A DNA stretch of 28,322 nt from a virus, in the IMG/VR virus record IMGVR_UViG_3300042698_000013, positions 1 through 28,322 of that record, one strand, 5' to 3'. Within the stretch, counting starts at the first letter, position 1, and every line of letters begins with the position of its first letter. Positions 4,355-24,615 of the stretch are shown piece by piece. The position numbers were made by a program, and so were the translations under genes. The notes under the pieces were generated by a model. The model worked only from the letters and a program-made list of their open reading frames with translations. It did not search any database and was not told where the DNA came from.

Positions 4355-5656
4355 TTAAGCTAGAATGCCGGTTAGTTGCTGTTGATCCATGATGAATTTC
4401 CAGGCATAGACTTGGCCGCGCCTGGTACCGAAAGGGTTATTAAGATTTTCAGGTGAAATGCCAAACAATTCATCGCCGCGTGCGGTTTGGCTCAGATCGA
4501 ATTGCCAGTAATAGAGCGCCCGGTTTGCTTGCTCACAGCCGCAGACGTTGCGTGCCAGGTCAGCGGCGGCAAGCCGCGCTACCACGGTACGATATGGCTC
4601 TTGCATCAGGCCATCATTGCCCAGCGGAAAGCCGGCCAGGTAGCGCACCGTGACCCGATCGGGCTGGCTACAGACGTTCCAATCCAGCGCTGACCATACC
4701 TGGCTGGTGCTGTCATAGCTCGCTTGCGCGGGCGTGATCAAACCGTGGCGTGCATCGCGTATGCCTACCCGCGCTACCGCATTGGCGGTAGCCGCTGGAT
4801 CATATGGCGAGCCGCTATATGGGTCGGATACGCTACACCCGCTACAGCAGCACCACCAGCCATGGCTCGGATACGTCTCCCAGGTGATCACCGCTTGCGC
4901 CGTGCTGACCGTATTCCCATCGGTTGCGGTATAGCGCCGGTAGATATCCAGCGTGGTTACGAAGTTGCTAGCCGTATCCGGATCAATGCCGTTCGCCCCG
5001 ATGTTGATCGCGCCCTCGTATTTAATCGGCTTGACGCATAACTGCTTTGGCCCGCGTATCGTTACCGTGCCGCCGCTAATTGAGACAGTGACGGGCTGCA
5101 AGCGCCAGCGCGAGCTAAGCGCGGTGCTGGATTGCCAGCCATTAAACCTATCTGCCGAACTGAAGTACACCGCGATTTGCGAAACGTCGGTTATAGATGT
5201 GGCCGCGCTCACGGTAAACGTATCGTCAAAGCCATCGCCGTCACTATCGCTATAGGTTACGGTTGCATTCGTGCTGATGGATGCGACCGTTTCAACCCCT
5301 ACGGCGCGTACCTCCCCCTCGGTCAACTGCATGCTGAGCCATCGCCCATCGCTCCCCCATGGGCCGACTGACGCGGGCCATGGCAAGGTTTCCACCACAT
5401 AATGCGGCGCGGGTGAGTAGCCCAGGTAGTTGCGGAGTTTCGTTTCCGCATCTTCGATGGCTTGCATGACTGAGAGCGCGCCCGCCGCATCGCTGTTTTG
5501 CCATTCGTAGCGGCGCACGAGCGTATTGCAGCCGGTATCCACACGCAGATCGCCCGTGCCCGCGATGCCAAAGGCATGCCAGGGGTGCATGCCCATCATC
5601 TCCCAAAAGGTGTACAGCGGTAGCATGTTCTTAGGTGTCATATCGATATTCGCCAT
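4355..5656 (-). CDS. Phage structural protein, possible head-tail connector, with Ca-binding-like loop
   Basis: A 433-residue protein between small connector-region genes and the probable tail tube gene. Residues 40-100 contain a Tyr/Trp-rich segment with LRNYLGYSPAP; residues 137-145 read DSDGDGFDD, a thrombospondin/EF-hand-like calcium loop; around residue 268 there is an unusual WWCCCSGC cluster; the C-terminal 110 residues contain a helical part (RTVVARLAAADLARNVCGC). Start ATG 5656 overlaps the previous gene by 26 bases; ATG 5641 (residue 6) is an alternative. There is no enzyme signature. Gene order suggests a neck, completion or connector role, but I do not recognise the family with certainty. 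Confidence 0.6.
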   Translation of the reverse strand: MANIDMTPKNMLPLYTFWEMMGMHPWHAFGIAGTGDLRVDTGCNTLVRRYEWQNSDAAGALSVMQAIEDAETKLRNYLGYSPAPHYVVETLPWPASVGPWGSDGRWLSMQLTEGEVRAVGVETVASISTNATVTYSDSDGDGFDDTFTVSAATSITDVSQIAVYFSSADRFNGWQSSTALSSRWRLQPVTVSISGGTVTIRGPKQLCVKPIKYEGAINIGANGIDPDTASNFVTTLDIYRRYTATDGNTVSTAQAVITWETYPSHGWWCCCSGCSVSDPYSGSPYDPAATANAVARVGIRDARHGLITPAQASYDSTSQVWSALDWNVCSQPDRVTVRYLAGFPLGNDGLMQEPYRTVVARLAAADLARNVCGCEQANRALYYWQFDLSQTARGDELFGISPENLNNPFGTRRGQVYAWKFIMDQQQLTGILA

Positions 5657-6396: not shown

Positions 6397-7677
6397 TTAT
6401 GGGAAGCTTGCAATGCGAACCATCACGCCAAAGTCAAAACCATTCGCCGCCGTCGCTGATGCCGTCCATGTCGTACCAGTCCCAGGGAACGTGCCATATG
6501 CTTGCGCTACACGATAGCTGGTCAAATATGGCGATGAACTGATCGCGTCATTCACATCGCTGCCAGGTATATTGCCACGCTCAAATCGAATTGTTGGCGT
6601 ACCATCGCTATTTAGCGCGAGTAGATACAGCCCAGGCGCAAGTTGCTGGCTAATAGATGCGCTCTTAAAGCCGAGCGAATCCGCCGCAACCGTGCCACCG
6701 TCAACGACAAGGCTTGTCGGCTGGCGGTTCACATCGGCATTGTAAATCGCCATACGACATGTTGTGCCGCCCGCGCCCGCTGCCGTTACCTCAAGGGCCA
6801 GCCGATCGATCGTCATGGTATTCCAGACAATCATCGGAAAATAGCGCGCCTGATTGGCAACAATCGCTGCCGCCGCCGATGAAAGGAATACCACGCCCGG
6901 TACACAAAGCTGCGCCGATCCGCCGAATAATGCGCGCCCCTGTGGCACGGCTGCTTGCGCCCCCGCAATGCTCAGCACCTGCGCACCGGTCAATTCCTCC
7001 ACATCGCCCGCGTTGACCGTGGCCCGCCCAAGGATGCGCGACGTGGCGCTGACGTTCTGGATCTTGGCGTAGGTTACGGCGTCGTTGTCGATATTGGCCG
7101 TGGCGATGCTGTTGAGCAGGGCAATCGTTCCAAGCGAAAGCAGCCCGCGCATCGTGGCATAGTCGGCAGCCGTGATTAGGCTGCGCCCGTTCGCGCTGGC
7201 ATCGCTGATCAAGCTAGCCGTGATGCTGTTGAGTAGCGCCAGCGTTCCGAATGACGGCTTATTCGGCAGCGTTGACCAGTCATAGTTACTGATCAGCAGG
7301 CGTAGTAAAATCGCGTTCGATAGGGTTATATCATCAGCGGCCCGCGTCCCCGCCTCACTCGCAATCGCCGCCGCATTCGTGCTATCCGCGGCTTGCAAGT
7401 CGGTAAAATCGCCCGCAATCGCCGCGTGCCTGACTGTCGCCCCCGCGCTGTGCGCGCTGGCGCTCGTGCCATCGAATGCGCGTGTTACCGTAAATGTGGT
7501 ACCGGCCTTTACGGTAACTTGTACTACCTCTTCAGTCGCCAGGCCGGGATCAAGCACGGCGGCGAACGGCGCAGCCGGCCAGCCGCTTGCGCTGGCAACC
7601 ACAAAGCTACCATCGCCCGCGCCTATCGCGCCGGTTAAGGTCGTATCAACAGCGGTGTTGCTGTAGTTACGCGCCAT
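6397..7677 (-). CDS. Phage fibre / appendage protein
   Basis: A 426-residue Ala/Ser/Thr-rich protein. Residues 10-90 match the widespread fibre-anchor pattern (TTLTGAIGAGDGSFVVASAS, then EEVVQVTV and FTVTRAFDGT followed by AHSAGATV). The middle has repeated short units such as ALLNSI and the fibre motif SRILGRATVNAGDVEEL (about residues 213-229). The last 190 residues form a beta-rich C-terminal domain (TTCRMAIYNADVNRQP, GLYLLALNSDGTPTIRF), which may be the host-contact or glycan-binding part. The start overlaps the end of the kinase gene by 11 bases. It is not known whether it sits on the head, neck or tail; its place on the head-proximal side of the tail genes leaves a head fibre possible. 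Being Ser/Thr-rich and next to the glycan cassette, it is a candidate acceptor for glycosylation. Confidence 0.75.
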   Translation of the reverse strand: MARNYSNTAVDTTLTGAIGAGDGSFVVASASGWPAAPFAAVLDPGLATEEVVQVTVKAGTTFTVTRAFDGTSASAHSAGATVRHAAIAGDFTDLQAADSTNAAAIASEAGTRAADDITLSNAILLRLLISNYDWSTLPNKPSFGTLALLNSITASLISDASANGRSLITAADYATMRGLLSLGTIALLNSIATANIDNDAVTYAKIQNVSATSRILGRATVNAGDVEELTGAQVLSIAGAQAAVPQGRALFGGSAQLCVPGVVFLSSAAAAIVANQARYFPMIVWNTMTIDRLALEVTAAGAGGTTCRMAIYNADVNRQPTSLVVDGGTVAADSLGFKSASISQQLAPGLYLLALNSDGTPTIRFERGNIPGSDVNDAISSSPYLTSYRVAQAYGTFPGTGTTWTASATAANGFDFGVMVRIASFP

Positions 7678-8611
7678 ACACTACCTCGCAACCTGGCACG
7701 CCGACGCGGATCGGCACATGCCGCAAGCCGAGCGCCTGAGTTATCGCCTGATGCCGCTCAGGCGGCGCTAAGAACAGCAGGAAGCCGCCGCCGCCCGCGC
7801 CGCAGAGCTTGCCGCCCCATGCGCCCGCGTTCCGTGCTGCGGCGTACCACAAATCGATCTGATGCGACCCGGCATACTGGCGCTTGATACGCCATGCCAA
7901 GTCCATAATTGCGCCACAACCACGAAAATACCCGTTGCCCAAATCTTCTGCGAAGTGGGGGGCTAGTCGTGCCAGTTCACGCACGTCATCCCTGTCATGC
8001 TGTTGCGCGGCTAGCACCGCGCCCGCATCGCCCGTTCGGGCCAGGCCAGTGTCGATCAACAGGCAATGCGACGAAAGCGCGTCAAGGTCGCACGCGATCG
8101 GGTCAACGCTCACGCCTTTGGACGTAAAGCCCAAGAGGTTCACGCCGCCATAGGCTGCGGTGTACTGATCCTGCTTGCCAATCGGCTTGTGGCACATATC
8201 CAGCTCAATGCCGCATGCGACCGCTGCGAGGTTGGGCCGGTTGTAGACCGTGTGTACGCCGGTGCGGTACGCTTCAAGGGCTGCGACCAGTCCAGCCGTA
8301 AAAGCACTACTGCTGCCCAAACCAGTGCCGCCTGGAATATCGGCTATGCTGTGAATCTCCACACCGCGCACCTCGGTTAGTTGAAGCGCTGCGCGTATCA
8401 ACTCGTGCTGCAGCTCGTCAACGCTGCTGACGTTCTCAGTCACGCTATACGCCGCCCTGATCGAGCCGTCATATTTCGGATTGACCGCCACATAGACATA
8501 CTTGTCAATCGCCGCCGCCACGCACGCGCCTGGCTCTTCCTGATAGAAGATCGGTCGGTCGCTGCCGCCGCCGACGAACGATATACGAAGTGGTGTTTTT
8601 GTCAGGATCAT
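7667..8611 (-). CDS. hddA: GHMP-family sugar kinase, HddA-like (heptose 7-phosphate 1-kinase)
   Basis: A 314-residue protein that starts at ATG 8611 inside an ATGA overlap; the longer frame to 8752 runs through the preceding gene and is not used. GHMP motifs are intact: an N-terminal TPLRISFVGGGSD (residues 6-18), the phosphate loop IPGGTGLGSSSAF (92-104) and the C-terminal GAGGGGFLLF loop. The LRISFVGGGSD signature is that of D-glycero-D-manno-heptose 7-phosphate kinases, which phosphorylate the anomeric position to give the 1,7-bisphosphate. A related fucokinase-like specificity cannot be excluded. A GmhA-like isomerase lies 5.4 kb upstream in the same cassette, which supports the heptose reading. 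It is a little shorter than typical bacterial HddA. Confidence 0.8.
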   Translation of the reverse strand: MILTKTPLRISFVGGGSDRPIFYQEEPGACVAAAIDKYVYVAVNPKYDGSIRAAYSVTENVSSVDELQHELIRAALQLTEVRGVEIHSIADIPGGTGLGSSSAFTAGLVAALEAYRTGVHTVYNRPNLAAVACGIELDMCHKPIGKQDQYTAAYGGVNLLGFTSKGVSVDPIACDLDALSSHCLLIDTGLARTGDAGAVLAAQQHDRDDVRELARLAPHFAEDLGNGYFRGCGAIMDLAWRIKRQYAGSHQIDLWYAAARNAGAWGGKLCGAGGGGFLLFLAPPERHQAITQALGLRHVPIRVGVPGCEVVYGA

Positions 8612-8913
8612 GCTTTTGCGTTCCAGTATCGATGCCCGATTATTGCCGCGCCGCCGATGCCTGCCCACCAGACCGGAAACAACCATGCATCCCAGCCGCC
8701 GAAGATGACCAGCCATGCCGCCGCCGCAAGAGCAGCCCACCACGATACGCAATAGAAACAGCGGATGCCCACATCAAAGCTGCTCTTGCTATCGTCGTGG
8801 CTATCACGAAAGCGCTTGAAGAGGAACCACGGCCCGTCCTCTTCAGTGATCATGCGCGCTACCCGCATCACGGCCAGCGCTGCTATAATGAATGTTAGCC
8901 AGTCATAGTGCAT
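8608..8913 (-). CDS. DUF1360-like small membrane protein
   Basis: A 101-residue protein starting at ATG 8913 with AAGG six bases upstream; an ATG at 8937 would add eight residues. It has an N-terminal hydrophobic helix (WLTFIIAALAVMRVARMIT), a charged loop (KRFRDSHDDSKSSFD), then CFYCVSWW followed by two hydrophobic segments. A first helix with RxxR after it, a charged loop and a CxxCxxxW in front of further helices is the DUF1360 pattern. The function is unknown in the family. It sits at the divergent junction with the only plus-strand gene and is coupled to the kinase by ATGA. Confidence 0.75.
   Translation of the reverse strand: MHYDWLTFIIAALAVMRVARMITEEDGPWFLFKRFRDSHDDSKSSFDVGIRCFYCVSWWAALAAAAWLVIFGGWDAWLFPVWWAGIGGAAIIGHRYWNAKA
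8881..8889 (+). promoter_or_regulatory. Extended -10 promoter-like site
   Basis: The plus strand reads TGCTATAAT, a perfect -10 hexamer (8884-8889) with the TG extension one base upstream. No clear -35 is seen around 8861-8866, which is tolerated by extended -10 promoters. A transcript starting near 8896 would have a leader of about 28 bases carrying GGAG six bases before ATG 8924. This is the main support for the lone plus-strand gene. Confidence 0.6.
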
Positions 8914-8923
8914 GGAGTGCCTT

Positions 8924-9133
8924 ATGGATTTATACATTCGCCACCATACGGTAAGCGAAGTATTAGTAGCCGATCGTGATACTGGATACGCCGTCGCTAA
9001 GTTCTTCTATCAGTGTGGCGATGACGGCAAGCCGAAATTTAATGCTCTGGCGCTTGCGCTTGCTTTTATAAATGACCAGCACACAGAAGATATTGCCGCT
9101 CTATCGACATCTGTAAAGCATCGAAGAGATTAG
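8924..9133 (+). CDS. Small plus-strand protein, unknown function
   Basis: A 69-residue frame on the strand opposite all other genes. ATG 8924 has GGAG six bases upstream and an extended -10 about 35 bases upstream. The protein (MDLYIRHHTVSEVLVADRDT onward) has a natural beta-beta-helix pattern with GYAVAKFFYQ and ALALALAFIN segments and normal residue composition, unlike the shadow frames elsewhere. The minus strand has no gene here, so this fills a gap of about 190 bases. It ends four bases inside the glycosyltransferase gene (convergent). I do not recognise the family; small regulators, anti-defence proteins or other late-acquired genes are possible. Confidence 0.6.
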   Translation: MDLYIRHHTVSEVLVADRDTGYAVAKFFYQCGDDGKPKFNALALALAFINDQHTEDIAALSTSVKHRRD

Positions 9134-11967
9134 CGCTTGCGACCTCTCGGAGCCGCTGTGGCCTGCTGTACCGTAGCCATCGGCATATCTTCAGCGCTTG
9201 CGGCCTGGGCCAATAGCTCAGGCGGTACCACGCGAAACAGTTCCATACCTGCAAGATGCTCCACATCACGCGGGTCAACATCGTGGTAACGGCTGTCTGT
9301 GTCGCGGCCAGCTTTGTACACCCGTCCGCTGGCCTTGCCGATATAGGTCTGCGCGCCCCATGAGTTGCCAATAAACTCCATTCGCACGGTGCCAGAAGTC
9401 GGCACGCTGGCAACATTCAGCATGCCACCTGTTGCCATTCCCAGCATACTATCAAGCGCCTGTTGCGCGGCAATGACGGTACTCTGCCCGCCGCAAGTGC
9501 CACATGGCATGACGATTTCCTCTCCTGATCGATAGGCCGCGTATCGGTCAAACAGCGCGGCTGCGGTTTCTTCTCCCAATGGCGTATAGGCGTGCGTGTT
9601 TTCATCGTCGCCCGGTTGCCGCGCCCTGAGCGCGGCGCGGGTGCGCTTGCCGGTTTCACGCCGGTAGATCAACATCGGCTGCGGTACACGGGTGCCACAT
9701 GCGCCGATAATCGCCAGCTTACAGAACAAATCCCAATCCTCGAAACATTTCAGCTTCTCGTCAAAGCCGCCGACTGAGCGCACCACATCGGTAGGGATCA
9801 GCGCCGTAACCGCGTGCATCAGCCCGCGCAGCATCTTGCGCTGGTCGTACTCTTCAACCTCATGCACGCCCATCGCGCCATCGATGCGCGTCTCATCGTC
9901 AAGCGTCAACCAATCGCTATAGGTGTACGTGCCGCCGCTTTCCACAAAGCCTCTCAGCAGCGCTTCCAGCGTGCGGGGTACAATCACATCGTCGGCGTCT
10001 AGGAACAGCACTAGCGGGGCGCGTGCGGCCTTCAGGCCTATGTTGCGCGCCGCCCCTGCCCCTGTTCTTCCCTTTGTCGTGATCACCCGCGCCCATGGGT
10101 GCGCTGTTAAAAAGGTATACGCGGGTGCGCCGGTATCATCAATGACGATACATTCCCAAAAGGGCATGGTCTGGGCTTGCACGCTATCGAGCGCGTCAAT
10201 CAAGGCTTTCTCATGGCCCGGCCCCACGGGTATGATCACACTCACAATCGGGTGTTGATGATGATGGACAGGCCAGGCGCGGCGCGGCGCGGGCGGATCG
10301 CCCTGCGCGCCGAATGGTACGATCTGCGCGTTCGGCTGGCGATCTTGCTGGATAGCCCGCATACCTTCCCTTGGATCGCCGGCCAATCGCCACGGAAGCC
10401 ATGCTGTCCAATCGCCGTCGCCGTCCTCCCCCCGGCTCTTGCTATCCGAGCGCAGCCGGTAGATCAGCGTGCTTTCATCGGTCACTTTGGCGATGCGAAC
10501 GCCAAACGAGCTTAGGCGTGTCCATAGGCTCGCATCTTCGGCCCGCCAGTCCCTAGCGCGGTAGCCGCCTGAGCGCTCGAATACCTCACGCCGCATCATG
10601 GCCGCGTAGGGCAGTTGATTAAGATGGGCTATCTGCGCGTGCCAATCAAACCGATCGCCCGGCCATTGGTTGCGCTTTCGATCTTCGCCTCGGTCGTTGA
10701 CGGTATCGAGATGCCCAAAGGCCACGTGTATGTTTGTGGCGTTGTCCAAAGCGTTCGATAGAATATCGAGTGCATTGGGGTTGAGCATGTCATCGGCATC
10801 CAAGAAAAGGATATATTTGCCTTTTGCGTGGCTTGCTCCATAGTTGCGCGCTCCTGATAGCTTCAAGTTCGATGGCGTCTTGATATAGCGAAAGCGGGTA
10901 TCATTCGCTGCCTTCATCCATCCGGCGCATTGCTGTTCGGTTATATCGGTTGATTGGTCATCAATGATGAGGCATTCCCAATCCGTTGCCGTTTGCTGAA
11001 GAACACTCCCCAGCGCATCGGGCAGGTAGCGGGCAAGGTTGTGGCACGTTACGATGACGCTGACTTTGGGGCGCTGCTGCTTGAAGTCGTGGTATACACG
11101 ATGATATAGCGCGGCGTACTGACCAATCTTATCTTTCCATTGCCAGCGCGCTTGTATATCGGAGATGCAATTCTTTGACAAGCGATCACGTTCGGCCAGG
11201 CAGCGGCGAATGGCCCCGGCGAGGGCATCATAGTCGCCATATTCGGCCAGGTATCCGGTTTCGCCTTCAATGACAATCTCCTCTTGCCCGCCATAGCGCC
11301 AGCCGGCCACAGGCACGCCAGCGGCCATCGCTTCTAAGGTGCCAATGCCAAAGGTTTCGCGTGCGGTGGCAAGGTATACCCCGGCTTGCTGGATCAGCGG
11401 CTTCATGGTTTCATACGGCATTGCGCCGAGCAACGCGACATTGGACGATTGACGGCCAAATGTTGACAGGAACGGCACGTCAGGCAAGAGCGCAGCCACG
11501 TCTTGCATATCACGCGGGTCGCTCACTTGGTCAGCGCGGGCCTTGTTCCATAGCACATAGCCGAGATGCGGGCGATCGTGCGCCCAATCGTCAGCGTCAA
11601 CACCGTGGTACACGACTTCGGGGCTGACAAGCATGCCGCGTGTAATCGCGTGCGCAACCCACTTGGACGGCGCGGTAATCGCCTGGGCGCGGGCCATGGC
11701 TTCAATCACGTGCTTGTTGATATCATCGCCCCACACGCCAAAGTTATAGCTCTCCCACATCAGGCCGTGGTTGTGCGAAACCATCGGCACGCCTAGCCGC
11801 TCAACGATGCCCGCACCATGGTTTGCTATCAAGTCAGCTTCGTCGGGGTTGTCTGTCACTTGGATGCCAAACTCAGGCAGGTACTTCACCTGGGCATCGC
11901 TGACACGGCGGATACCACCATCGCCCCGATCGGCATTCTTGTAGATTGGATTGATGCATACGCGCAT
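9130..11967 (-). CDS. Multidomain glycosyltransferase: GT4-GT2-GT2 with C-terminal extra domain
   Basis: A 945-residue protein from ATG 11967, which overlaps the FkbM stop as TAATG; the frame open to 12009 is only an upstream extension. Residues 1-295 are a GT4 (glycosyl transferase group 1) domain with EAMARAQAITAPSKWV and the ETFGIGTLEAMAAG donor-site motif (204-217). Residues 301-510 are a GT2 domain (VSVIVTCHN, DDQSTD, DADD at 391-394). Residues 574-790 are a second GT2 domain (VSVIIPVGPG, DADD at 657-660, FEDWDLFCK near 742). Residues 820-945 form a Cys-containing linker (MPCGTCGG) and a small beta-rich domain (VRMEFIGNSWGAQTYIG onward). Each GT2 domain keeps its metal-binding DxD. It probably builds a glycan of several sugars in one polypeptide; sugars and acceptor are unknown. 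Confidence 0.88.
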   Translation of the reverse strand: MRVCINPIYKNADRGDGGIRRVSDAQVKYLPEFGIQVTDNPDEADLIANHGAGIVERLGVPMVSHNHGLMWESYNFGVWGDDINKHVIEAMARAQAITAPSKWVAHAITRGMLVSPEVVYHGVDADDWAHDRPHLGYVLWNKARADQVSDPRDMQDVAALLPDVPFLSTFGRQSSNVALLGAMPYETMKPLIQQAGVYLATARETFGIGTLEAMAAGVPVAGWRYGGQEEIVIEGETGYLAEYGDYDALAGAIRRCLAERDRLSKNCISDIQARWQWKDKIGQYAALYHRVYHDFKQQRPKVSVIVTCHNLARYLPDALGSVLQQTATDWECLIIDDQSTDITEQQCAGWMKAANDTRFRYIKTPSNLKLSGARNYGASHAKGKYILFLDADDMLNPNALDILSNALDNATNIHVAFGHLDTVNDRGEDRKRNQWPGDRFDWHAQIAHLNQLPYAAMMRREVFERSGGYRARDWRAEDASLWTRLSSFGVRIAKVTDESTLIYRLRSDSKSRGEDGDGDWTAWLPWRLAGDPREGMRAIQQDRQPNAQIVPFGAQGDPPAPRRAWPVHHHQHPIVSVIIPVGPGHEKALIDALDSVQAQTMPFWECIVIDDTGAPAYTFLTAHPWARVITTKGRTGAGAARNIGLKAARAPLVLFLDADDVIVPRTLEALLRGFVESGGTYTYSDWLTLDDETRIDGAMGVHEVEEYDQRKMLRGLMHAVTALIPTDVVRSVGGFDEKLKCFEDWDLFCKLAIIGACGTRVPQPMLIYRRETGKRTRAALRARQPGDDENTHAYTPLGEETAAALFDRYAAYRSGEEIVMPCGTCGGQSTVIAAQQALDSMLGMATGGMLNVASVPTSGTVRMEFIGNSWGAQTYIGKASGRVYKAGRDTDSRYHDVDPRDVEHLAGMELFRVVPPELLAQAASAEDMPMATVQQATAAPRGRKR
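9508..9526 (-). promoter_or_regulatory. Possible internal ribosome binding site in the glycosyltransferase gene
   Basis: On the minus strand, AGGA (within GGAGAGGA) lies seven bases before an in-frame ATG at 9510. Initiation there would release the C-terminal 126 residues (9130-9510), which is exactly the non-catalytic tail domain after the second GT2. The coincidence of a ribosome site and a domain border makes a separate short product plausible, but the bases also encode ordinary residues (SGEEIV) of the long protein. Confidence 0.35.
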
Positions 11968-12695
11968 TAGTCGCGCTCCCAAGCCGTCAGCATAACGCCA
12001 TACGTCCAAACGATGCGATAGCCCGCATCTTCTAGTTGCTGGTGTATCTTCGCCAGCGCCATACCGTACTCGTCAATGAAGGTGTGAAACTGTACCATGA
12101 GCCGCTTTGGCAAGATGCCCTTGCCCAGCATATGCGGTAGCAGCCTATACTCATCGCCCTCGATATTCATCAGCATCAGGTCAACCACACCAATCTCAAG
12201 CTCGCTGAATGCCGCGCCAATCTCACGAATTGCGCCGGTACCACCCGCATACTCGCCCGCATCGGCTTTGGTAAATGAACAGCCGTCAGTCTCCCAATCG
12301 GCCATATTGAATGTGCCACCGCGATCCCCAATCCCAAAGTTCACAACCGTAGCCGCATCGCCCAATGCCCGCTTGCATACCTCGTATGCCCATAGCTGCG
12401 GCTCGAATACGAACAAGCGCGGATGGTAGCGCTCGGCTATTTGCAAGGCCCAGCGTCCCTTGAAGCCGCCGACCTCCACAACCGTGCTCTCACTGGTCAG
12501 CGGCCAATCAATCGCCTTCTGATCCCAAACATGCTCAGGATTGGCGGCGGCGGCTTTCGCTTCGCGTACTAGCTCATCCATGCGATGTGCGTGCGGATTC
12601 TCTGCCACGTCATCATCTTCTTTCCAGTGTTCCATGCGATCGGGGTCTTCGGGCAATGACCCTAACCAAAGCATTGGATTGACAACACTGCTCAT
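11967..12695 (-). CDS. FkbM-family SAM-dependent methyltransferase
   Basis: A 242-residue protein coupled by ATGA to the upstream methyltransferase. After a 60-residue N-terminal extension it has the Rossmann methyltransferase core: STVVEVGGFKGRWA (about 70-83, SAM-binding glycine loop), LFVFEPQ (acidic residue after strand 2), GGTFNMADWETDGCS, then VVDLMLMNIEGDEYRLLP (strand 4 and FkbM-type DxxKxDxE-like region, here with NIEGDE) and LMVQFHTF. FkbM enzymes usually O-methylate sugars or polyketides. In this cassette it may cap or modify a glycan. The family call is firm; the substrate is not known. Confidence 0.85.
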   Translation of the reverse strand: MSSVVNPMLWLGSLPEDPDRMEHWKEDDDVAENPHAHRMDELVREAKAAAANPEHVWDQKAIDWPLTSESTVVEVGGFKGRWALQIAERYHPRLFVFEPQLWAYEVCKRALGDAATVVNFGIGDRGGTFNMADWETDGCSFTKADAGEYAGGTGAIREIGAAFSELEIGVVDLMLMNIEGDEYRLLPHMLGKGILPKRLMVQFHTFIDEYGMALAKIHQQLEDAGYRIVWTYGVMLTAWERD

Positions 12696-13366
12696 CGTAG
12701 CCCCGTATCGAATACCTGCAAATTAGAAGCAAGCCAATGACTGGCCGGCCCGGTCACGTACCCAAACAGGTGCGCGATCTGGCGCGTCAAGTCCTCCCGG
12801 TAGCTGATGCCGCGCTCATGGAACATACCGCGCCATTCGTGCGCCGGCCGGCAGCCGACGTGATGCTCGCCGCGCTGCCCTGGAGGTGCCGCGCTGAAGA
12901 GCACGTAGCCGCTGGCGTCAAGCATATTGGGCTTGGGCCTGAGATGCCGCGCTATTGTGTCAACCAAAGTCTCATGGCTTTCAAGCGGTAAGTGCTCGGC
13001 AACTTCCATGCAGGTGATGAGATCAAACATCTTGAATGGCCCATCGGCGTCATGCTTGCCTATGCCGTTTGTCCAGATGATATGCTCGTCACGAATGGAT
13101 TCGTAGATATACATCGGGCGCGTCAAGTCCTCGTGTACAAACCAATGTTCTGGCCCATTGATCAGGTCAACCCCATAGGCATCGCTGCCGAGCTTGCGCG
13201 CACAGTTGACCATCGCGCCCGTGCCGCTGCCCAGGTCAAGGTAGCTCTGCGGTATGCCCATCCATGCCACGATCTGACAGAAGGCGCGTTCGTTCCATCC
13301 ATCGAACGGCGCAAGCGCAGCGCGCCGGGCGGCGATCTCGTCTGCTGTGGGCTGGGTATAGCTCAT
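12692..13366 (-). CDS. Class I SAM-dependent methyltransferase
   Basis: A 224-residue protein from ATG 13366 (ATGA overlap with the Cys-rich gene). SAM-binding motif SYLDLGSGTGAM lies at about residues 41-52, followed by DAYGVDL (acidic end of strand 2) and the strand-4 motif KMFDLITCMEVAEHLP. The C-terminal half has VLFSAAPPGQRGEHHVGCRP, which resembles methyltransferases associated with glycan and nucleotide-sugar clusters. The substrate is unknown; the context suggests a sugar or a glycosylated virion protein. Confidence 0.85.
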   Translation of the reverse strand: MSYTQPTADEIAARRAALAPFDGWNERAFCQIVAWMGIPQSYLDLGSGTGAMVNCARKLGSDAYGVDLINGPEHWFVHEDLTRPMYIYESIRDEHIIWTNGIGKHDADGPFKMFDLITCMEVAEHLPLESHETLVDTIARHLRPKPNMLDASGYVLFSAAPPGQRGEHHVGCRPAHEWRGMFHERGISYREDLTRQIAHLFGYVTGPASHWLASNLQVFDTGLR

Positions 13367-13611
13367 GGCTTTGCTCGATATTCAATACAACCAAAGTCGC
13401 CGCGTGTGTTCAGGTTTGTGTCGATTGGTGTGATCGGTGCCAGCGTGCCTGCAATAAATCCATGATTGCCGTAGCGAATGTCAACAAGTGGCTTTCCATT
13501 CGCGTGCGATGCCAATAAACATATGCCCCACACACCATCAGAGTGTGCCGTACCAGATTGCCAGTATCGACATGTGTTACATCGGCCCTCTTGCGGCTCG
13601 TTATAGCTCAC
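13363..13611 (-). CDS. Small Cys-rich, zinc-knuckle-like protein
   Basis: An 82-residue protein starting with GTG at 13611 in a GTGA overlap. It has CNTCRYW near the N-terminus, GICLL in the middle and DFGCIEY near the C-terminus, four Cys in the C-x2-C...C...C arrangement of many short phage proteins that may bind zinc. No enzyme motif is present. It lies between the SIS isomerase and the first methyltransferase and may be an accessory to the cassette or simply a passenger. Confidence 0.65.
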   Translation of the reverse strand: MSYNEPQEGRCNTCRYWQSGTAHSDGVWGICLLASHANGKPLVDIRYGNHGFIAGTLAPITPIDTNLNTRGDFGCIEYRAKP

Positions 13612-14090
13612 TTGCTCAACTCCTCAGTCAGCCAATGGCCGATGGCAAGATGGCAATCTTCGATAATGCCGTAATGCGTGTGTGGTACGCGCACCATCAG
13701 CGCATTCGAGTAGTACGGCGATAGTACGCTGGTCACGAGCGCAATTGGCATGTCGTGACAAATAAGCGTCTCGATATTGTCAGAGGTGCCAGAACAGCTC
13801 AGGCATATGATCGCATCGTTTGGGCGCGCAAGCCTGTGCATTTCTTCGCTTAGCGCATCGCCGTAGCTCTTGTCATTCGCCCAAGCGGTCAGCACTGCCG
13901 GATTACTCCCCAGCGCCTGTACGCGCCGCCCTGCCGCTTTGGACAGGTCGCATGCCCAATGCTGCGCGGTTGACGCGCTACCGCCGTTCCCAGCAAGCCA
14001 CAGCGTACCTTCACACGCCCATACAAAGTCAAGGAGCGGCGTGGGATCAAGCTTGGCAAGCGTGGCTTGTAATTCGTCAAAGTACTTCAT
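13608..14090 (-). CDS. gmhA: SIS-domain sugar isomerase, GmhA-like (sedoheptulose 7-phosphate isomerase)
   Basis: A 160-residue single SIS domain. Motifs: GNGGSAS (34-40), the phosphosugar-binding SCSGTSDN (98-105) and the C-terminal IIEDCHLAIGH (142-152), an order and spacing matching GmhA, which converts sedoheptulose 7-phosphate to D-glycero-D-manno-heptose 7-phosphate. His152 lines up with the catalytic His180 of E. coli GmhA. The helix after GNGGSAS reads AQHWACDLSK, placing Asp48 where the catalytic Glu65 of E. coli lies, so activity may be altered. It is somewhat shorter than the E. coli enzyme (192 residues). The pairing with an HddA-like kinase supports a heptose role; other SIS isomerases remain possible. 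Confidence 0.8.
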   Translation of the reverse strand: MKYFDELQATLAKLDPTPLLDFVWACEGTLWLAGNGGSASTAQHWACDLSKAAGRRVQALGSNPAVLTAWANDKSYGDALSEEMHRLARPNDAIICLSCSGTSDNIETLICHDMPIALVTSVLSPYYSNALMVRVPHTHYGIIEDCHLAIGHWLTEELSK

Positions 14091-14248
14091 GGGTAGATAT
14101 ACTCCCAGTCAATCACGCCACCATGCCATTGGCCGATCTTTGCGCCGTGGATACAGTTGCGTAGGCATCTCGGCAGCGCGAATGCCGCTGCCGGTAACGC
14201 TCGATAGGCGCGTATGCCGATAGCATACTCAGGTATGAAACAACTCAT
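14087..14248 (-). CDS. Small ORF in glycan cassette (53 aa)
   Basis: A 53-codon frame that starts at ATG 14248 in an ATGA overlap with the glycosyltransferase stop and ends in a TGA overlapping the ATG of the SIS gene. Both junctions match the coupling style of the operon exactly, which is the main reason to accept it. The product (MSCFIPEYAIGIRAYRALPA onward) has three Cys and a Trp-rich C-terminal end (KIGQWHGGVIDWEYIYP). No family is recognised. Confidence 0.6.
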   Translation of the reverse strand: MSCFIPEYAIGIRAYRALPAAAFALPRCLRNCIHGAKIGQWHGGVIDWEYIYP

Positions 14249-14913
14249 AGCATTGTCTCAGTCTTGACCGCGCCGATGTGAGCGAAATAGCCATCAGTCG
14301 GATAGCCCTCCGGCCAGACAATCAGCGGGCCATGCCCCGTGCGGTACTGAAATGCATAGGCTAATTCTGTATCGCCGGGTATCAGCCCGATCGGATAATC
14401 GCCATAGGCAGCGCGATAGCGCGCATGCCGCAAGCTGGGATGGCCTGTAAAGGCATAGAACGACGTATCCGGCCAATCACGCGGGATCGTATGGTAGCGC
14501 CGCCCTGCGAACGTCTGCGGCGGCGCAAGCTTGCTGCCATCGATATAGCCCAGGCGGATCATACCAAGCTCATCACTATCCATCAGCGCATAGGCGTGCG
14601 GCGTCAAGTCAAGTGGCTGCGTGAGTACAAAGTCATCTTCAAGCCAAAAGGTCAAGGCGCTCACGGTATCAGCCGCATCCCATGCGGCTATGGCGTTGCC
14701 GCCATAGCCGCGCCGCAGTGTGTGCCCGCCGACGAATGGTACATCGTCAAGCATGTCCCAAATCGCCGCCCAATGGTCAACCGAGCTGCCATCATCAGCA
14801 ATGTACCATAGTAGCTCACCGCCGTAGCGCACGTTCTCACGCGCCGCCGCAATCGTGCGTAAGGCGTATTCGGTACGCTGCCAGGTTTGCAAGATGATCG
14901 TAATCGGTTCCAT
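14245..14913 (-). CDS. GT2-like glycosyltransferase
   Basis: A 222-residue protein joined to the preceding gene by TAATG. It begins MEPITIILQTWQRTEYALRT, the usual first strand and helix of a GT-A fold, has the nucleotide-sugar acidic pair YIADDGSS (about 37-44) and the metal-binding LEDDFVL (about 91-97). The C-terminal part is Tyr/Trp-rich (YAFTGHPSLRH, PEGYPTDGYFAHIG). It is a single-domain, soluble enzyme without membrane helices. The sugar and acceptor are not known. Confidence 0.8.
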   Translation of the reverse strand: MEPITIILQTWQRTEYALRTIAAARENVRYGGELLWYIADDGSSVDHWAAIWDMLDDVPFVGGHTLRRGYGGNAIAAWDAADTVSALTFWLEDDFVLTQPLDLTPHAYALMDSDELGMIRLGYIDGSKLAPPQTFAGRRYHTIPRDWPDTSFYAFTGHPSLRHARYRAAYGDYPIGLIPGDTELAYAFQYRTGHGPLIVWPEGYPTDGYFAHIGAVKTETML

Positions 14914-15827
14914 TACTCGTGACTTTCAGCTTCGGCCAGCATGCGCCGGAACTCCGCTGCCGCTAAGCGCGGCGCGTCGTAGCTGGTGTAGGATCGCCCT
15001 GTCGCGCCAGTTATTGGGTAAATCCAGAAATGCTCTGCCATCTCATCGGCGGTTTCGTCAGGGTGTACCAAGTCCTCGTGCTTCTTTTCGACTGAGCGCA
15101 GCCCTGTCTCATGGATATCCGCACCCGGCGCAATGATATGGGCCATCTCGGATAGGCTCAGCGAGCGCATCTTTGGTACAACAATCACGCCTGCTAGGTG
15201 TGTAGCCGCTTCGGATATGAGCGCAACCGCATCGCTCTCGCCCATCCAAAAGCGCGTCATCTCAGGATCGGTTACGGTCAACGGCTGGCCTTGCTCGGCC
15301 TGCTTGCGCCAGATCGGGATCACGCTGCCGTTGCTGGCAACCACGTTGCCATACCGGCAGAGTGTGAAGATACACGGGATATCCGCTTGCGCCTGGAACA
15401 GCTTTTCCATCGCGAGCTTACTCGCGCCATAGGCACTGATGGCCTTGCACGCCTTATCGGTGCTGATGCCGATGCAGCGCTTGACGCCGCCCGCAATACA
15501 AGCGCGCACGACGTTGACCGAGCCGGTAACGTTCGTATCGTAGCAATTGATCGGCTGCTGCTCGGCGTCAGGCAGGCGCTTGACGGCTGCGGCGTGAATG
15601 ACCATATCGTGACCAGCAACAGCGGCATTCAGGCGCTCAGCATCGCGCACGTCGCCTAGCACGTAGCGCAACTGGCCGTAGCTCTGGCGCATCTGCGCTT
15701 GACGTAGCTCAGAACGTGAATAGATTGTGAAGGTGCAATCCCATCGCTCAGCCAGGGCCGTGCGTACAATCGCATGGCCGAGCGTGCCGCTGCCGCCTGT
15801 GATCAAGATGTTGCCGCTCAGGCTCAT
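14913..15827 (-). CDS. NAD(P)-dependent nucleotide-sugar dehydratase/epimerase, PseB/CapD-like
   Basis: A 304-residue extended SDR protein from ATG 15827 (ATGA overlap). The Rossmann motif LITGGSGTLG is at residues 8-17, the active site is carried by STDKA (122-126) and YGASK (133-137), and AAAVKRLPDAE (79-89), RYGNVVASNGSVIP and TDPEMTRFWM are hallmark segments of the UDP-GlcNAc 4,6-dehydratase (inverting 5-epimerase) group that includes PseB, FlaA1 and CapD-like proteins. These enzymes make activated deoxy-amino sugars for surface glycans. No membrane segment is present, so it is of the short soluble type. The exact sugar is uncertain. Confidence 0.85.
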   Translation of the reverse strand: MSLSGNILITGGSGTLGHAIVRTALAERWDCTFTIYSRSELRQAQMRQSYGQLRYVLGDVRDAERLNAAVAGHDMVIHAAAVKRLPDAEQQPINCYDTNVTGSVNVVRACIAGGVKRCIGISTDKACKAISAYGASKLAMEKLFQAQADIPCIFTLCRYGNVVASNGSVIPIWRKQAEQGQPLTVTDPEMTRFWMGESDAVALISEAATHLAGVIVVPKMRSLSLSEMAHIIAPGADIHETGLRSVEKKHEDLVHPDETADEMAEHFWIYPITGATGRSYTSYDAPRLAAAEFRRMLAEAESHE

Positions 15828-16102
15828 GGGTGATCCTCTGGGCGGATATTACCGGCGACATACCCCGGCGCGTATTCGTCAACAAGCCTGCTGAGTTTAG
15901 CGATCAAGAGATGCGCGCCATGGCCCGGTACACCAGCACTTGCGAACTGCACATCATAGGCAAGCGCATGATCGATCATTGTTTGTTCACGTGGACTGAG
16001 AGCGGTATACCATGGGCCGTGCGGCGGGCCGTGCGGGTTTGGCTTTCGCGTGCCTGGGTAGTCGATAGGAAGCTCGATAGTTGTTTTTGGCTTGGTATCC
16101 AT
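15824..16102 (-). CDS. Hypothetical protein at the head of the glycan cassette (92 aa)
   Basis: Start ATG 16102 has GGAGG eight bases upstream, so this start was chosen over an upstream one at 16141 that lies in the hairpin after the capsid gene. The protein starts MDTKPKTTIELPIDYPGTRK, is Pro/His-rich in its first third (NPHGPPHGPW) and helical in the rest. It leads the cassette and is coupled to the dehydratase gene by ATGA. I do not recognise a family. Confidence 0.7.
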   Translation of the reverse strand: MDTKPKTTIELPIDYPGTRKPNPHGPPHGPWYTALSPREQTMIDHALAYDVQFASAGVPGHGAHLLIAKLSRLVDEYAPGYVAGNIRPEDHP

Positions 16103-16129
16103 CGGTTGATCCTCCCTTTGGATTGTTGT

Positions 16130-16154
16130 GCGGAGCGGCATTGCGCCGCTCCGC
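16130..16154 (-). terminator. Perfect 10-bp hairpin after the capsid gene
   Basis: GCGGAGCGGC and its exact complement flank a five-base loop. On the minus strand it begins about 14 bases after the capsid stop codon. The stem is very GC-rich, but the sequence after it (ACAACAATCC) has no U tract, so it is not a canonical intrinsic terminator. It may act as a partial terminator or as a 3' stabiliser that raises capsid mRNA relative to the downstream glycan genes. Confidence 0.5.
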
Positions 16155-16168
16155 CTTTCCGACGCCTC

Positions 16169-17719
16169 TTAGCCGACTGACGTATTCGGGCTGAAGAATG
16201 ACGGCACGTTCTGGGTTGTGCGCCCGCCGTTGAGGAAGTAGTACACGTTGCTGGCGGTGCTCCAATCGTCCTCGTGCGCAAACGGGGTGTACGCGACATT
16301 GGTCAAGCGCGCCGCAAGCTGCGGCGTGCGGAGGATCAAACGCGGCTCGGTCTTGACCTGGCTCTGCACACAGTAGGCCGTAGGGGGTCGCTTGTGCCAC
16401 AGGAAGCGCCCGCCGTCTGTGGTGAAATAGCTATCGCCGGGGGCCATCAGCTTAGCGGCAGCCATCGCGCCCTGGGGCGTGTCGTAGTTGAAATACTCCA
16501 TGTACGTCGCCTGGAAGCCACCGATAACCGTCAGCGGTACCCAGTAGATTGACGAGTTGAATGCGCCGGCGGATAGCGCCGTCTCAGGGATCGTATCGTC
16601 AATCACGACTTCGCGCTTGATCCCGTCAATCCAGAGGAATTGACCAGTTCTGGCATCCCAATCGCCGCGCATATCGCTGCGCATCTCTTGGAGCCGCAAG
16701 CTATCATTGACGGCCGGCTGCGCCGCGCTCAGGCCGGTATCCGTGGTAATGCAGCGGTAGGTCGAGTACGCGCACGGCCAAACCTCGGTCAACTGATAGA
16801 AGGCTGACCAGCGCATGACCATGACCCAGCGCACGGGTGCCAGGCCCATCTCAATGGCGCGATAGCGAAGCTGGCGATCGATGCCGGTGATCACGCTGAC
16901 AATACCGCTTTTGGTGGCTGGGCTGGTTTCCACATTCTGACTACGGAAGTTATACACGAGGCTATCCGCACGCGGGCAGAGCGTACCCGTGCCGCCGACT
17001 GGGACATCACTATCGCGGTAGCCGGTGTTGATTAGGCCGTCAAGGCCGTTGTATTCCTGAATGATGCCGCCGCCCGTGTTATTCGTGCGGTTGCCGGTAA
17101 ACAGGAATGGGCCGAAGTTGCGCACCCAATCGTTTGCCAGTTCATAGCTGACTTTCGCCACCTCGAAGTTGAGCGCGTCGGCAATGCCGCCATTGCCCGG
17201 TACGGTCGGTGCGCCCTCCATATTGGCCTGGTATGGCCCGCCGATCAGGCGATAGTCGGTGAACTCCGAGCGGTTATTGATGCGCCCTACCCGGTCAAGC
17301 TCAATCACCGGGGTCATCATGCTCTGCCGGCCAAAGCGGTACATCTGAGTACACAACTTCAGCAGGCCAGCGGTCGGAGGATCACCGCACACGCCCTGGC
17401 TATTGGTACCGTTAAAGGTGCCCGTTGCCGCCGTTTGGCCGGTCAAGATGCCATAGAACGCGAAGTCCTCAGTTGATGGCCGGCTGGGAAGCATCCGCAT
17501 CAATCCAAGATGCGGCAGGATCATGGCGTTGATGACATCACGCGACATGCCCGGCGCGCTCATCAGACCCGCCGCGCCATGCGCGTAGCCGCTTGCGCGT
17601 GGCGTACCGCTCACGGCCTTATAGGTCTGGCCGTTCGCGCCGCCCGCGCCCTGCATATTCTGCGCCATCACGGCAAACGCCTGGGCTAGCGCATTAACAT
17701 CGATTGCTTGTGGTTCCAC
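16169..17719 (-). CDS. Major capsid protein
   Basis: The chosen start is GTG 17719, which has AAGGAG six bases upstream; the upstream ATG 17752 falls in a repeat-containing leader and has no ribosome site. This gives 516 residues (MEPQAIDVNALAQAFAVMAQ). There is a short helical N-terminal arm, a Gly/Ala-rich linker, then a long mixed alpha/beta body with no enzyme motif and many aromatic and Asn residues, as in HK97-fold capsid proteins. It directly follows the protease-scaffold gene and is itself followed by a strong hairpin, both typical of the capsid gene. The identity rests on size, position and expression signals more than on a specific motif. Confidence 0.8.
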   Translation of the reverse strand: MEPQAIDVNALAQAFAVMAQNMQGAGGANGQTYKAVSGTPRASGYAHGAAGLMSAPGMSRDVINAMILPHLGLMRMLPSRPSTEDFAFYGILTGQTAATGTFNGTNSQGVCGDPPTAGLLKLCTQMYRFGRQSMMTPVIELDRVGRINNRSEFTDYRLIGGPYQANMEGAPTVPGNGGIADALNFEVAKVSYELANDWVRNFGPFLFTGNRTNNTGGGIIQEYNGLDGLINTGYRDSDVPVGGTGTLCPRADSLVYNFRSQNVETSPATKSGIVSVITGIDRQLRYRAIEMGLAPVRWVMVMRWSAFYQLTEVWPCAYSTYRCITTDTGLSAAQPAVNDSLRLQEMRSDMRGDWDARTGQFLWIDGIKREVVIDDTIPETALSAGAFNSSIYWVPLTVIGGFQATYMEYFNYDTPQGAMAAAKLMAPGDSYFTTDGGRFLWHKRPPTAYCVQSQVKTEPRLILRTPQLAARLTNVAYTPFAHEDDWSTASNVYYFLNGGRTTQNVPSFFSPNTSVG

Positions 17720-17736
17720 TCTATGCTCCTTTGTGG

Positions 17737-17761
17737 ATTGCAGATTGAACATTGCAGATTG
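17737..17761. repeat. Two direct 11-base repeats in the capsid gene leader
   Basis: ATTGCAGATTG occurs at 17737-17747 and again at 17751-17761, a 14-base period. A related TGCAATG follows at 17762-17768. The repeats lie between the protease stop (17780) and the capsid ribosome site. They could be a protein-binding operator or an RNA element; no function can be shown. Confidence 0.6.
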
Positions 17762-17779: not shown

Positions 17780-18514
17780 TTACGCCTGCCCAGGCGTACC
17801 GTTGATATTTCCAAACAGGTTTGTGACCAGATCGCCAAACTCGAATTGTTGATCGGCGGGTACCTGACCTTTAACCGCGCCGAGTAGTTGCTGATCCTGT
17901 GGTATCCACGGATTGACAAGCGTACCGCCGCTCTCGCTTGGTCGCTGCACAATCTCAGGTTGCAGGCCCATCAGCTCGTCAAGCTGTGCCTTCAGCGCGG
18001 TTTGCCGCGCCTCGTGATCCTTCAGCGATGCTTGAAGCGTTGCGATCTGCTCTGCCTTTTCGGCATCACTGGCGTCCTTCGTAGCCTGATAGGGTTGCAT
18101 CAGCCCTTGCACATGGCTTGCGACCTTCTTTTCGAGGTCAAGCGCGCCCATGACCTGGGATAGTCCAGCCTGAATTGCGCCCGCTACCGCTTCGCTAATC
18201 GCGGTCAAGTCCTCCGGCGATAGGGTCAAGCCGCCTTCGGCTGGCTCTTCCTCCATCGGTTCTTCGGCCATAACCTCCATATCGCCTTCCCCATCGTCCT
18301 TTTCTTCGACAACGGGCGGCACGGGCGGCATAGCCTTATAGGTCACGCCGTTGATCACCACATCGGGCAGCTCGATAACCGGCTCTTCAGCCTTATAGGC
18401 CACGCCCTGATCGGTTGCGGTCTTCTCGGTTGCCGATGCCTGCGATAGCAACCACGTCACGTCATCATCAGTGAAGCCATGCGCCTTCAGGCCTTCAATC
18501 TTCACTTTATCCAT
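17780..18514 (-). CDS. Nested scaffold protein from internal start
   Basis: An in-frame ATG at 18514 (residue 534 of the fusion) has AAGGAG nine bases upstream (18524-18529), a strong ribosome binding site lying exactly between the protease and scaffold domains. The 244-residue product (MDKVKIEGLKAHGFTDDDVT onward) would be a free scaffold protein: acidic middle (EEKDDGEGDMEVMAEE), a coiled coil and a short C-terminal tail likely to contact the capsid protein. The same nested design is known for lambda C and Nu3. The AAGGAG also encodes KE of the long protein, so translation needs proof. Confidence 0.6.
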   Translation of the reverse strand: MDKVKIEGLKAHGFTDDDVTWLLSQASATEKTATDQGVAYKAEEPVIELPDVVINGVTYKAMPPVPPVVEEKDDGEGDMEVMAEEPMEEEPAEGGLTLSPEDLTAISEAVAGAIQAGLSQVMGALDLEKKVASHVQGLMQPYQATKDASDAEKAEQIATLQASLKDHEARQTALKAQLDELMGLQPEIVQRPSESGGTLVNPWIPQDQQLLGAVKGQVPADQQFEFGDLVTNLFGNINGTPGQA

Positions 18515-20308: not shown

Positions 20309-20385
20309 TGGTCGGGCCGGGGGATTTGAACCCCATCTCCGCCGACTTGGAGGCGGCATTCTACCGGATTAAACTACTTGCCCGA
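20309..20385 (-). tRNA. tRNA-Trp (CCA anticodon), structurally degenerate
   Basis: Minus strand. The D arm (TAGTTTAATCCGGTAGAAT), the anticodon loop CTCCAAG with CCA, and the T loop TTCAAAT with a GGGG/CCCC stem are all clear. The anticodon stem has four pairs and a C-U mismatch next to the loop. The acceptor is odd: TCGGGC pairs with GCCCGA over six bases but leaves no discriminator before an encoded CCA, and two extra bases lie between acceptor and D arm. It may be a working divergent phage tRNA, a decaying copy, or a tRNA mimic. Confidence 0.65.
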
Positions 20386-24415: not shown

Positions 24416-24615
24416 GGCGTGTCCTCAATATCCGGTTCATGCCGGCCTTCAAGTTGAATAATCGGCACACCATCTAAGCTATGCCGCCATACAACCGGCT
24501 CGGACTTCCATCGGCGTAGTGCCGCTTGAAGCGCGGCGCGCTCTTCATCGGTTATGGGAGCGACGAACGACATATATACAATCCGCCCGTTCTGATCAAT
24601 CGTAGGCTCTATCAT
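24412..24615 (-). CDS. Hypothetical protein between terminase and portal (67 aa)
   Basis: ATG 24615 overlaps the terminase TGA, and its own TGA overlaps the portal ATG. The protein (MIEPTIDQNGRIVYMSFVAP) has two strands, a helix (DEERAALQAALRRWKSE), then two more strands and an acidic tail. No family is recognised. The position suggests a packaging or portal accessory role. Confidence 0.65.
   Translation of the reverse strand: MIEPTIDQNGRIVYMSFVAPITDEERAALQAALRRWKSEPVVWRHSLDGVPIIQLEGRHEPDIEDTP

Follow-up and report, generated by a model that had tools for sequence, protein, structure and literature searches.

A capsid-adjacent slot of glycan genes in an uncultured phage clade: a probable virion-glycosylation locus

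Introduction

Why should a tailed phage keep a long run of sugar-modifying genes among the genes of its head? The question is raised by IMG/VR virus record IMGVR_UViG_3300042698_000013, the whole 28,322-base stretch of which was analyzed here and is called the window. It is a tailed-phage fragment with nearly all genes on the minus strand. They comprise an endolysin, the small and large terminase, a gene in portal position, a long gene of the head region and the capsid gene, and then the cassette, the fibre gene and other virion genes. The element in question is the glycan gene cassette, a minus-strand run (16141-7667) between an HK97-fold capsid gene and a fibre gene. A preliminary description of the window had named eight glycan genes in this run, regarded them as a complete-looking and unusual set inserted into the late operon, and proposed glycosylation of the virion or, alternatively, an altered host surface. 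Comparison with related phages shows that the cassette fills a slot shared by the whole clade, and this slot is probably a virion-glycosylation locus with a serotype-like turnover of its genes.

A slot beside the capsid gene in 40 phages

Relatives were found by alignment scans with the capsid protein and with a second marker, a conserved downstream protein (the homologue of 4355-5656, labelled "connector" for convenience only), which led to 80 loci. The slot is the interval between the capsid gene and the connector homologue and was scored where the two markers shared one strand and kept their order. All relatives are metagenomic contigs, some of them fragments, and the functions assigned to slot proteins rest on homology and genomic place. 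In 40 related IMG/VR contigs, the capsid gene is followed by a variable slot of 1.1-12.7 kb and then by the same downstream protein, with fibre, Ig-like or LamG-like proteins usually coming after the slot. A cassette that agrees with that of the window in genes and gene order is found in IMGVR_UViG_3300005535_000021 (G001), where the slot interval continues over the ends of the contig, both of which carry a 120-bp repeat.

Identification of the capsid protein by sequence families gave nothing, with no match in Pfam, PHROG or the PDB sequences, and was decided by structure. An AlphaFold2 (AF2) model built from 44 relatives, with a predicted local distance difference test (pLDDT) score of 76 and a predicted template modelling (pTM) score of 0.75, matches the capsid protein of cyanophage A-1(L) (7f38_A; Z 19.7, root-mean-square deviation 3.6, 308 aligned residues) as well as that of HK97 (1ohg; Z 14.3), and its predicted fold is the HK97 capsid fold. 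No capsid match exists among 50,697 phage records; the clade is uncultured and is itself new. When 84,980 genomes were scanned with the capsid, a single match was returned, a 7.6-kb contig in an Ardenticatenales metagenome-assembled genome which is probably a co-binned phage; no close HddA was found in that assembly.

Glycosyltransferase (GT) genes are gathered in the slot. A GT2 domain (PF00535) was detected in 33 of the 35 contigs searched at full length, and all GT2 matches counted by position in 31 contigs (54/54) fall inside the slot, which makes up 14% of the bases, a concentration that exceeds chance. Five further matches in G001 and G002 are also inside it, as found by inspection. Even the smallest GT-bearing slots, of about 2 kb, keep a GT2 protein of 370 amino acids (aa), a second GT-like protein of 220 aa and a DUF1360 protein of 90 aa. 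In some relatives (G001, 46278-47057; 3300025934_000283), the glycan slot also includes DNA N6/N4-methyltransferase genes.

A one-off insertion in the window phage is ruled out by this clade-wide slot, and the word "inserted" in the preliminary description is misleading, since the slot consists of a near-universal core plus variable extra genes throughout the clade. Its suggestion to look for conserved placement in related phages is answered by the same place in 40 contigs, and the late-operon position that it had given holds as well. It had also reckoned with genes that are broken or absent in all relatives, which is not the case.

The constant core

Relatives of one core GT occur in 38 of the 40 slots. 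Every core GT ends in a CCGG-like cysteine motif followed by a small beta-barrel, and a profile search finds this CCGG-barrel domain in 40/40 slots, fused to GT2 in those 38. The barrel protein stands alone in G046 (3300042196_000315, also L062) and G034 (3300013027_000022), which are the two contigs lacking GT2 altogether. The sequences that went into the profile came from these same phages, L062 and a duplicate excepted, and L062 is the sole independent match because its sequence was left out. The AF2 model of the domain has pLDDT >93 over residues 30-80; a PHROG scan gave nothing convincing for it, and cultured phage records one weak match only (E 0.09). In the window, the last GT2 and the C-terminal domain of a large GT4-GT2-GT2 protein correspond to the core GT of the clade.

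The identity of core GTs exceeds that of the capsid proteins by 15 points in 0 of 672 distant pairs, which suggests that the core GT is inherited along with the capsid. The simplest reading is that the constant element is a small capsid-adjacent protein to which a GT has been fused. As a separate observation, the C-terminus of many core GTs is a basic tail rich in proline (APRGRKR, KRGRPKKN, RPKR; positions 9130-9160 in the window), and RGR/GRP-like motifs are present in 9/39 core GTs and in 5/250 other slot proteins.

The second constant protein is DUF1360-like, present in 40/40 slots by a hidden Markov model of our own and the only slot protein that is consistently membrane-spanning. Pfam family PF07098 scores over its cut-off in 4 relatives and at E<=0.001 in 9/36, with no match for the window copy; a PHROG scan of the slot proteins points to phrog_781, and no match was found in cultured phage records.

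The cassette of the window

The features of the window slot and its borders are collected in Table 1. Profile and PDB matches agree with the eight glycan genes named previously, in place and strand, and the assignment of both neighbours is upheld, by the HK97-fold model for the capsid and by a tail-fibre PHROG match to the N-terminus of the fibre protein.

Table 1. Features of the window slot and its borders
Feature	Position	Strand	Evidence or remark
Major capsid protein, predicted HK97 fold; upstream slot border	16169..17752	-	structure prediction
105-aa protein, first slot gene	15824..16141	-	counterparts at same place in G015, G009, G008
PseB/FlaA1-type UDP-GlcNAc 4,6-dehydratase (putative)	14913..15827	-	Pfam Polysacc_synt_2 1.2e-69; TIGR03589
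Small GT2-like glycosyltransferase	14245..14913	-	via G001 homologue
53-aa gene absent from the open reading frame list	14087..14248	-	ATGA overlaps on both sides; G001 counterpart in longer frame
GmhA-like sedoheptulose-7-phosphate isomerase (SIS)	13608..14090	-	TIGR00441 4.6e-11; PDB 1x92
82-aa Cys-containing (CxxC) protein	13363..13611	-	occupies position of G001 GmhB-like phosphatase
S-adenosylmethionine-dependent methyltransferase	12692..13366	-	PF13489 1.2e-10
FkbM-family methyltransferase	11967..12695	-	TIGR01444 9.5e-9; PF05050 8.8e-5
GT4-GT2-GT2, one protein	9130..11967	-	PF00535 2.1e-51 (2 stretches); PF00534 1.4e-16
C-terminal CxxC/CCGG motif and small beta-barrel domain of the GT4-GT2-GT2 protein	9130..9465	-	alignment of 38; AF2
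DUF1360-like small membrane protein	8608..8937	-	phrog_781 4.7e-8
HddA/WcbL-like D-glycero-D-manno-heptose-7-phosphate kinase (GHMP)	7667..8611	-	NF049969 1e-24; PDB 4usk WcbL, 3k85
Fibre-like virion protein; downstream cassette border in the window	6397..7677	-	phrog_38058 tail fiber 1e-23
Conserved downstream protein, second slot marker	4355..5656	-	present in 40/40 slot contigs

The dehydratase has Helicobacter FlaA1/PseB (2gn4, 5.5e-58) as its closest PDB match and keeps the catalytic STDK and YxxxK motifs. It appears to be of the PseB/FlaA1 type, with a TIGR03589 score (260.1 bits) below the equivalog cut-off of 407.75 bits, so that its product may differ in stereochemistry from that of PseB. 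The small GT2-like protein has no match of its own in Pfam and NCBIfam; its G001 homologue (43272-43931, 72% identity) exceeds the PF00535 cut-off. For the GmhA-like protein, the best PDB match is GmhA (1x92, 2e-11), the TIGR00441 equivalog cut-off is not reached, and the metal/catalytic motif H..D and E..H is constant in 8/8 members. The motif of GmhA reads H..E and Q..H; the two replacements are conservative. The HddA-like kinase, with an intact GHMP motif (PGGTGLGSSS), is closest to WcbL and HddA in the PDB and scores 87.6 bits against NF049969, for which the cut-off is 600; its translation truly starts at the ATG near 8611 instead of the TTG at 8752.

Coupled overlaps had been described almost throughout the run, and the coupling is better than was stated. 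It is nearly complete because the added 53-aa gene bridges one gap (G001 has a similar frame of 80 aa at this position), so that all junctions touch or overlap except for the 192-bp gap at 8938-9129. A 73-codon open reading frame on the plus strand, 8912-9133 (+), exactly spans this sole uncoupled gap and has no match in phage records. The cassette genes are free of internal stops, and their ratios of nonsynonymous to synonymous substitution rates (dN/dS) against G001 are 0.13-0.27, like those of capsid and tail genes; by sequence, they are functional genes under purifying selection.

Apparent exchange of the sugar genes

The extra genes, which comprise those for sugar precursors, additional GTs and methyltransferases, vary from phage to phage. 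Among the 40 slots, HddA was counted in 11, GmhA in 8, PseB-type dehydratases in 5, DegT aminotransferases in 9 and GNAT genes in 5; all phages with GmhA also have HddA (8/8, Fisher 2e-6), and all those with GNAT have DegT (5/5, p 2e-4). Between the window and G015, HddA (72% identity) and GmhA (67%) are far closer than the capsid (only 37%). Against G001, the values are 66% for HddA, 62% for GmhA and 86% for the capsid, the HddA value being depressed by misplaced start extensions (73% over the trimmed proteins). Identities lie more than 15 points above that of the capsid in 12/12 distant pairs for GmhA and 20/38 for HddA, and in the GmhA tree a clade of window and G001 is rejected (approximately unbiased test, p-AU 0.013). 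From such comparisons, the heptose genes appear to be traded between lineages, not following the capsid phylogeny. In G001, a HAD phosphatase (44568-45116) with GmhB-like CxH...CxC spacing is encoded between the isomerase and a methyltransferase.

Flanking genes and other observations

The window capsid protein is 86-87% identical to those of G001 and G002. The gene ahead of it, 17780-20113 (-), encodes a 777-aa protein with relatives in every contig checked and no clear family match, in which several parts of head morphogenesis seem to have been fused. Within the head-gene region there is a lone tRNA-Trp (CCA) gene at 20309-20384 (-); no tRNA genes were found in 17 related stretches scanned. 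The large terminase, 24612-26015 (-), is mosaic: G002, G003 and G015 match only over the C-terminal ~195 residues (45-53%), and G001, G008, G009, G012 and G013 match over nearly the full length (56-70%), so its N-terminal ATPase half seems, from these alignments, to have been replaced. On the other side of the slot, the connector protein has no match in Pfam and PHROG, and the virion-region protein 2783-4342 (-) contains BNR/sortilin/YCF48-like repeats and is 81-83% identical in G001 and G002, above its neighbours. The ends of the G001 and G013 contigs carry exact terminal direct repeats of 120 bp and 123 bp, despite records classed as linear, and the two are probably complete genomes of ~52 and ~48 kb.

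Proposed virion glycosylation and its alternatives

The following scheme may be envisaged for virion glycosylation. Late in infection, the dehydratase would convert host UDP-GlcNAc into a 4-keto-6-deoxy-HexNAc nucleotide sugar, and the GmhA-like and HddA-like enzymes would lead to heptose bisphosphate, from which GDP-heptose could be made by GmhB of the host (in G001, of the phage) and host HddC. Soluble GTs would assemble a short glycan in the cytoplasm, directly on an assembling virion protein, with the C-terminal domain holding the core GT at the capsid/head or at another such protein; the extra transferases would extend the glycan, the methyltransferases would finish its sugars, and gene swaps would alter it as in serotype loci.

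We count in favour of this reading, which was also the role thought likeliest at the outset, the fixed place by the HK97-fold capsid gene in 40/40 contigs with all GT2 matches in the slot, the retention of DUF1360 and of two GT or GT-like genes even in slots of ~2 kb, the barrel domain and DUF1360 in all slots, a core GT that tracks the capsid where the heptose genes do not, and further the lack of a flippase (25 contigs) and of a thymidylate-synthase homologue (8 contigs), the linked heptose pair, the dN/dS values and the precedent of phage Corndog. A fuller version is put forward tentatively and with less than even confidence: a dedicated, serotype-like virion-glycan locus throughout the clade, whose core GT was born by fusion to the capsid-adjacent protein that stands alone in two relatives and is delivered to the growing head, with sugar genes, heptose genes included, traded and the fused core inherited with the capsid.

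Several points weigh against virion glycosylation as drawn here. The universal presence of the DUF1360 membrane protein is left unexplained if all steps take place in the cytoplasm. The fold search for the barrel domain gave weak small-barrel matches only (GINS, ribosomal proteins and gpFI; best Z 4.6) and no family was assigned; because the barrel has no confident structural match, it is from position and fusion that we infer that this domain probably docks the core GT at the capsid. In the HddA tree, a clade of window, G001 and G002 is not rejected (support 64/30), and since rates of enzymes and capsids may differ, identity gaps by themselves are no proof of exchange. The final heptose step, nucleotide transfer, is lacking as well, with HddC or any NTP-transferase (PF00483) found in 0/8 contigs.

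With GmhB likewise not found in the window, a complete heptose pathway is ruled out there, and no enzyme in the window would aminate or reduce the dehydratase product, so the set is not the complete-looking one of the preliminary description. The gene content suggests that the phage supplies early heptose steps at most and that, since none of the 8 contigs has an NTP-transferase, the last step must be done by the host.

It is unlikely that the enzymes instead remodel the host surface, where a change in lipopolysaccharide or some other glycan of the host would prevent superinfection or benefit lysogens in the manner of O-antigen conversion. Heptose and FlaA1/PseB-type sugars are ordinary in host surface polysaccharides, the GT2 domains have GtrB-like PHROG matches, and integrases are present in 6 of 25 relatives, plus one resolvase. 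However, a flippase (PF01943) was found in 0/25 contigs, there is no multi-span Gtr-type or polymerase protein (none with at least 6 spans in the 40 slots), and the genes lie within the head genes, not among morons. G001 and G013, both probably complete, are without both recombinase families and yet have large gene sets, and the fusion of the GT with a domain whose gene adjoins that of the capsid also speaks against this alternative. The altered host surface proposed earlier is weakened accordingly by the missing flippase and multi-span transferases. The "cluster 22" reading frames with 4-5 spans were considered as flippases and discarded, as they look like antisense frames.

Quite improbable is a scheme in which the barrel protein is a mere head-assembly factor fused to a GT that targets one fibre protein, the capsid staying bare. 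The position of fibre, Ig-like or LamG-like genes after the slot would suit it, small capsid-associated packaging proteins are known to be encoded beside the capsid gene (lambda gpFI, PMC4493119), and the gpFI C-terminal domain (2lsm) is among the weak fold matches of the barrel. That match (Z 3.4) is no better than those to unrelated barrels and serves as a lead only, and the GT fusion in 38/40 slots would be left unexplained.

That the GTs sugar-coat phage DNA bases against restriction has very little likelihood: DNA glycosylation by phage GTs occurs elsewhere (Pyle 2024, as cited in PMC12619734), some core GTs have basic RGR/KRGRPK-like tails and a few slots contain DNA methyltransferases, but the thymidylate-synthase/hydroxymethylase homologue PF00303 was found in 0/8 contigs, two of them with terminal repeats, the genes are located in the structural operon and not with replication genes, and DNA hypermodification needs no methylated multi-sugar assembly.

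If virion glycosylation is right, a position-conserved locus in 40 phages would make it a lasting and evolvable trait. To our knowledge, glycosylation of phage virions has been shown in a few cases only, chiefly in mycobacteriophages. Virions with changeable sugar coats would bear on phage persistence and on recognition by receptors and antibodies, and the locus would be a source of compact enzymes for cytoplasmic protein glycosylation. The locus also offers a context for DUF1360, an orphan family, and for the CCGG-barrel domain.

Comparison with known systems

The phage system that comes closest is that of Corndog (cluster O mycobacteriophages), in which an O-methyltransferase, two GTs and a GlcNAc-transferase are encoded between the portal and protease genes and for which capsid modification was proposed in 2015 (PMC4351075); virion-protein glycans were later reported for Corndog, Che8 and Myrna (Freeman 2023, as cited in PMC12363180). 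In both systems, GT and methyltransferase genes lie inside the head-gene operon. The arrangement is therefore unusual only in part, given the head-gene O-methyltransferase and three glycosyltransferases of the Corndog type (PMC4351075) and virion glycosylation that has been shown according to the account in PMC12363180. For Corndog, capsid/tail proteins were proposed as substrate and later shown to be glycosylated. The window clade differs in having the genes behind the capsid gene, additional nucleotide-sugar and heptose enzymes, a barrel domain fused to the core GT, DUF1360, and modular variation over 40 phages.

With the GDP-D-glycero-D-manno-heptose pathway of capsule loci (GmhA, HddA/WcbL, GmhB, HddC), the clade shares GmhA-like and HddA-like genes, linked in 8 phages, and in G001 a GmhB-like one; unlike capsule loci, it is without HddC in all 8 contigs searched and, in the window, without GmhB, and the GmhA-like protein has Asp for Glu in its metal/catalytic motif. 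HddA-like kinases are phage-borne also in Caulobacter phage Cr30 and cyanophages (35% and 30% identity), in large phages of 156-205 kb and, as far as examined, outside such a capsid-linked slot. Fixed flanks and exchangeable sugar genes are shared with bacterial O-antigen and capsule loci (serotype islands), from which the phage slot differs in having no flippase or polymerase and in being flanked by capsid and virion genes. Virion glycosylation is thus a known kind of system, and what the clade adds to it is a fixed slot, the fusion that joins a GT with a domain from beside the capsid gene, and a modular supply of sugars that includes heptose genes.

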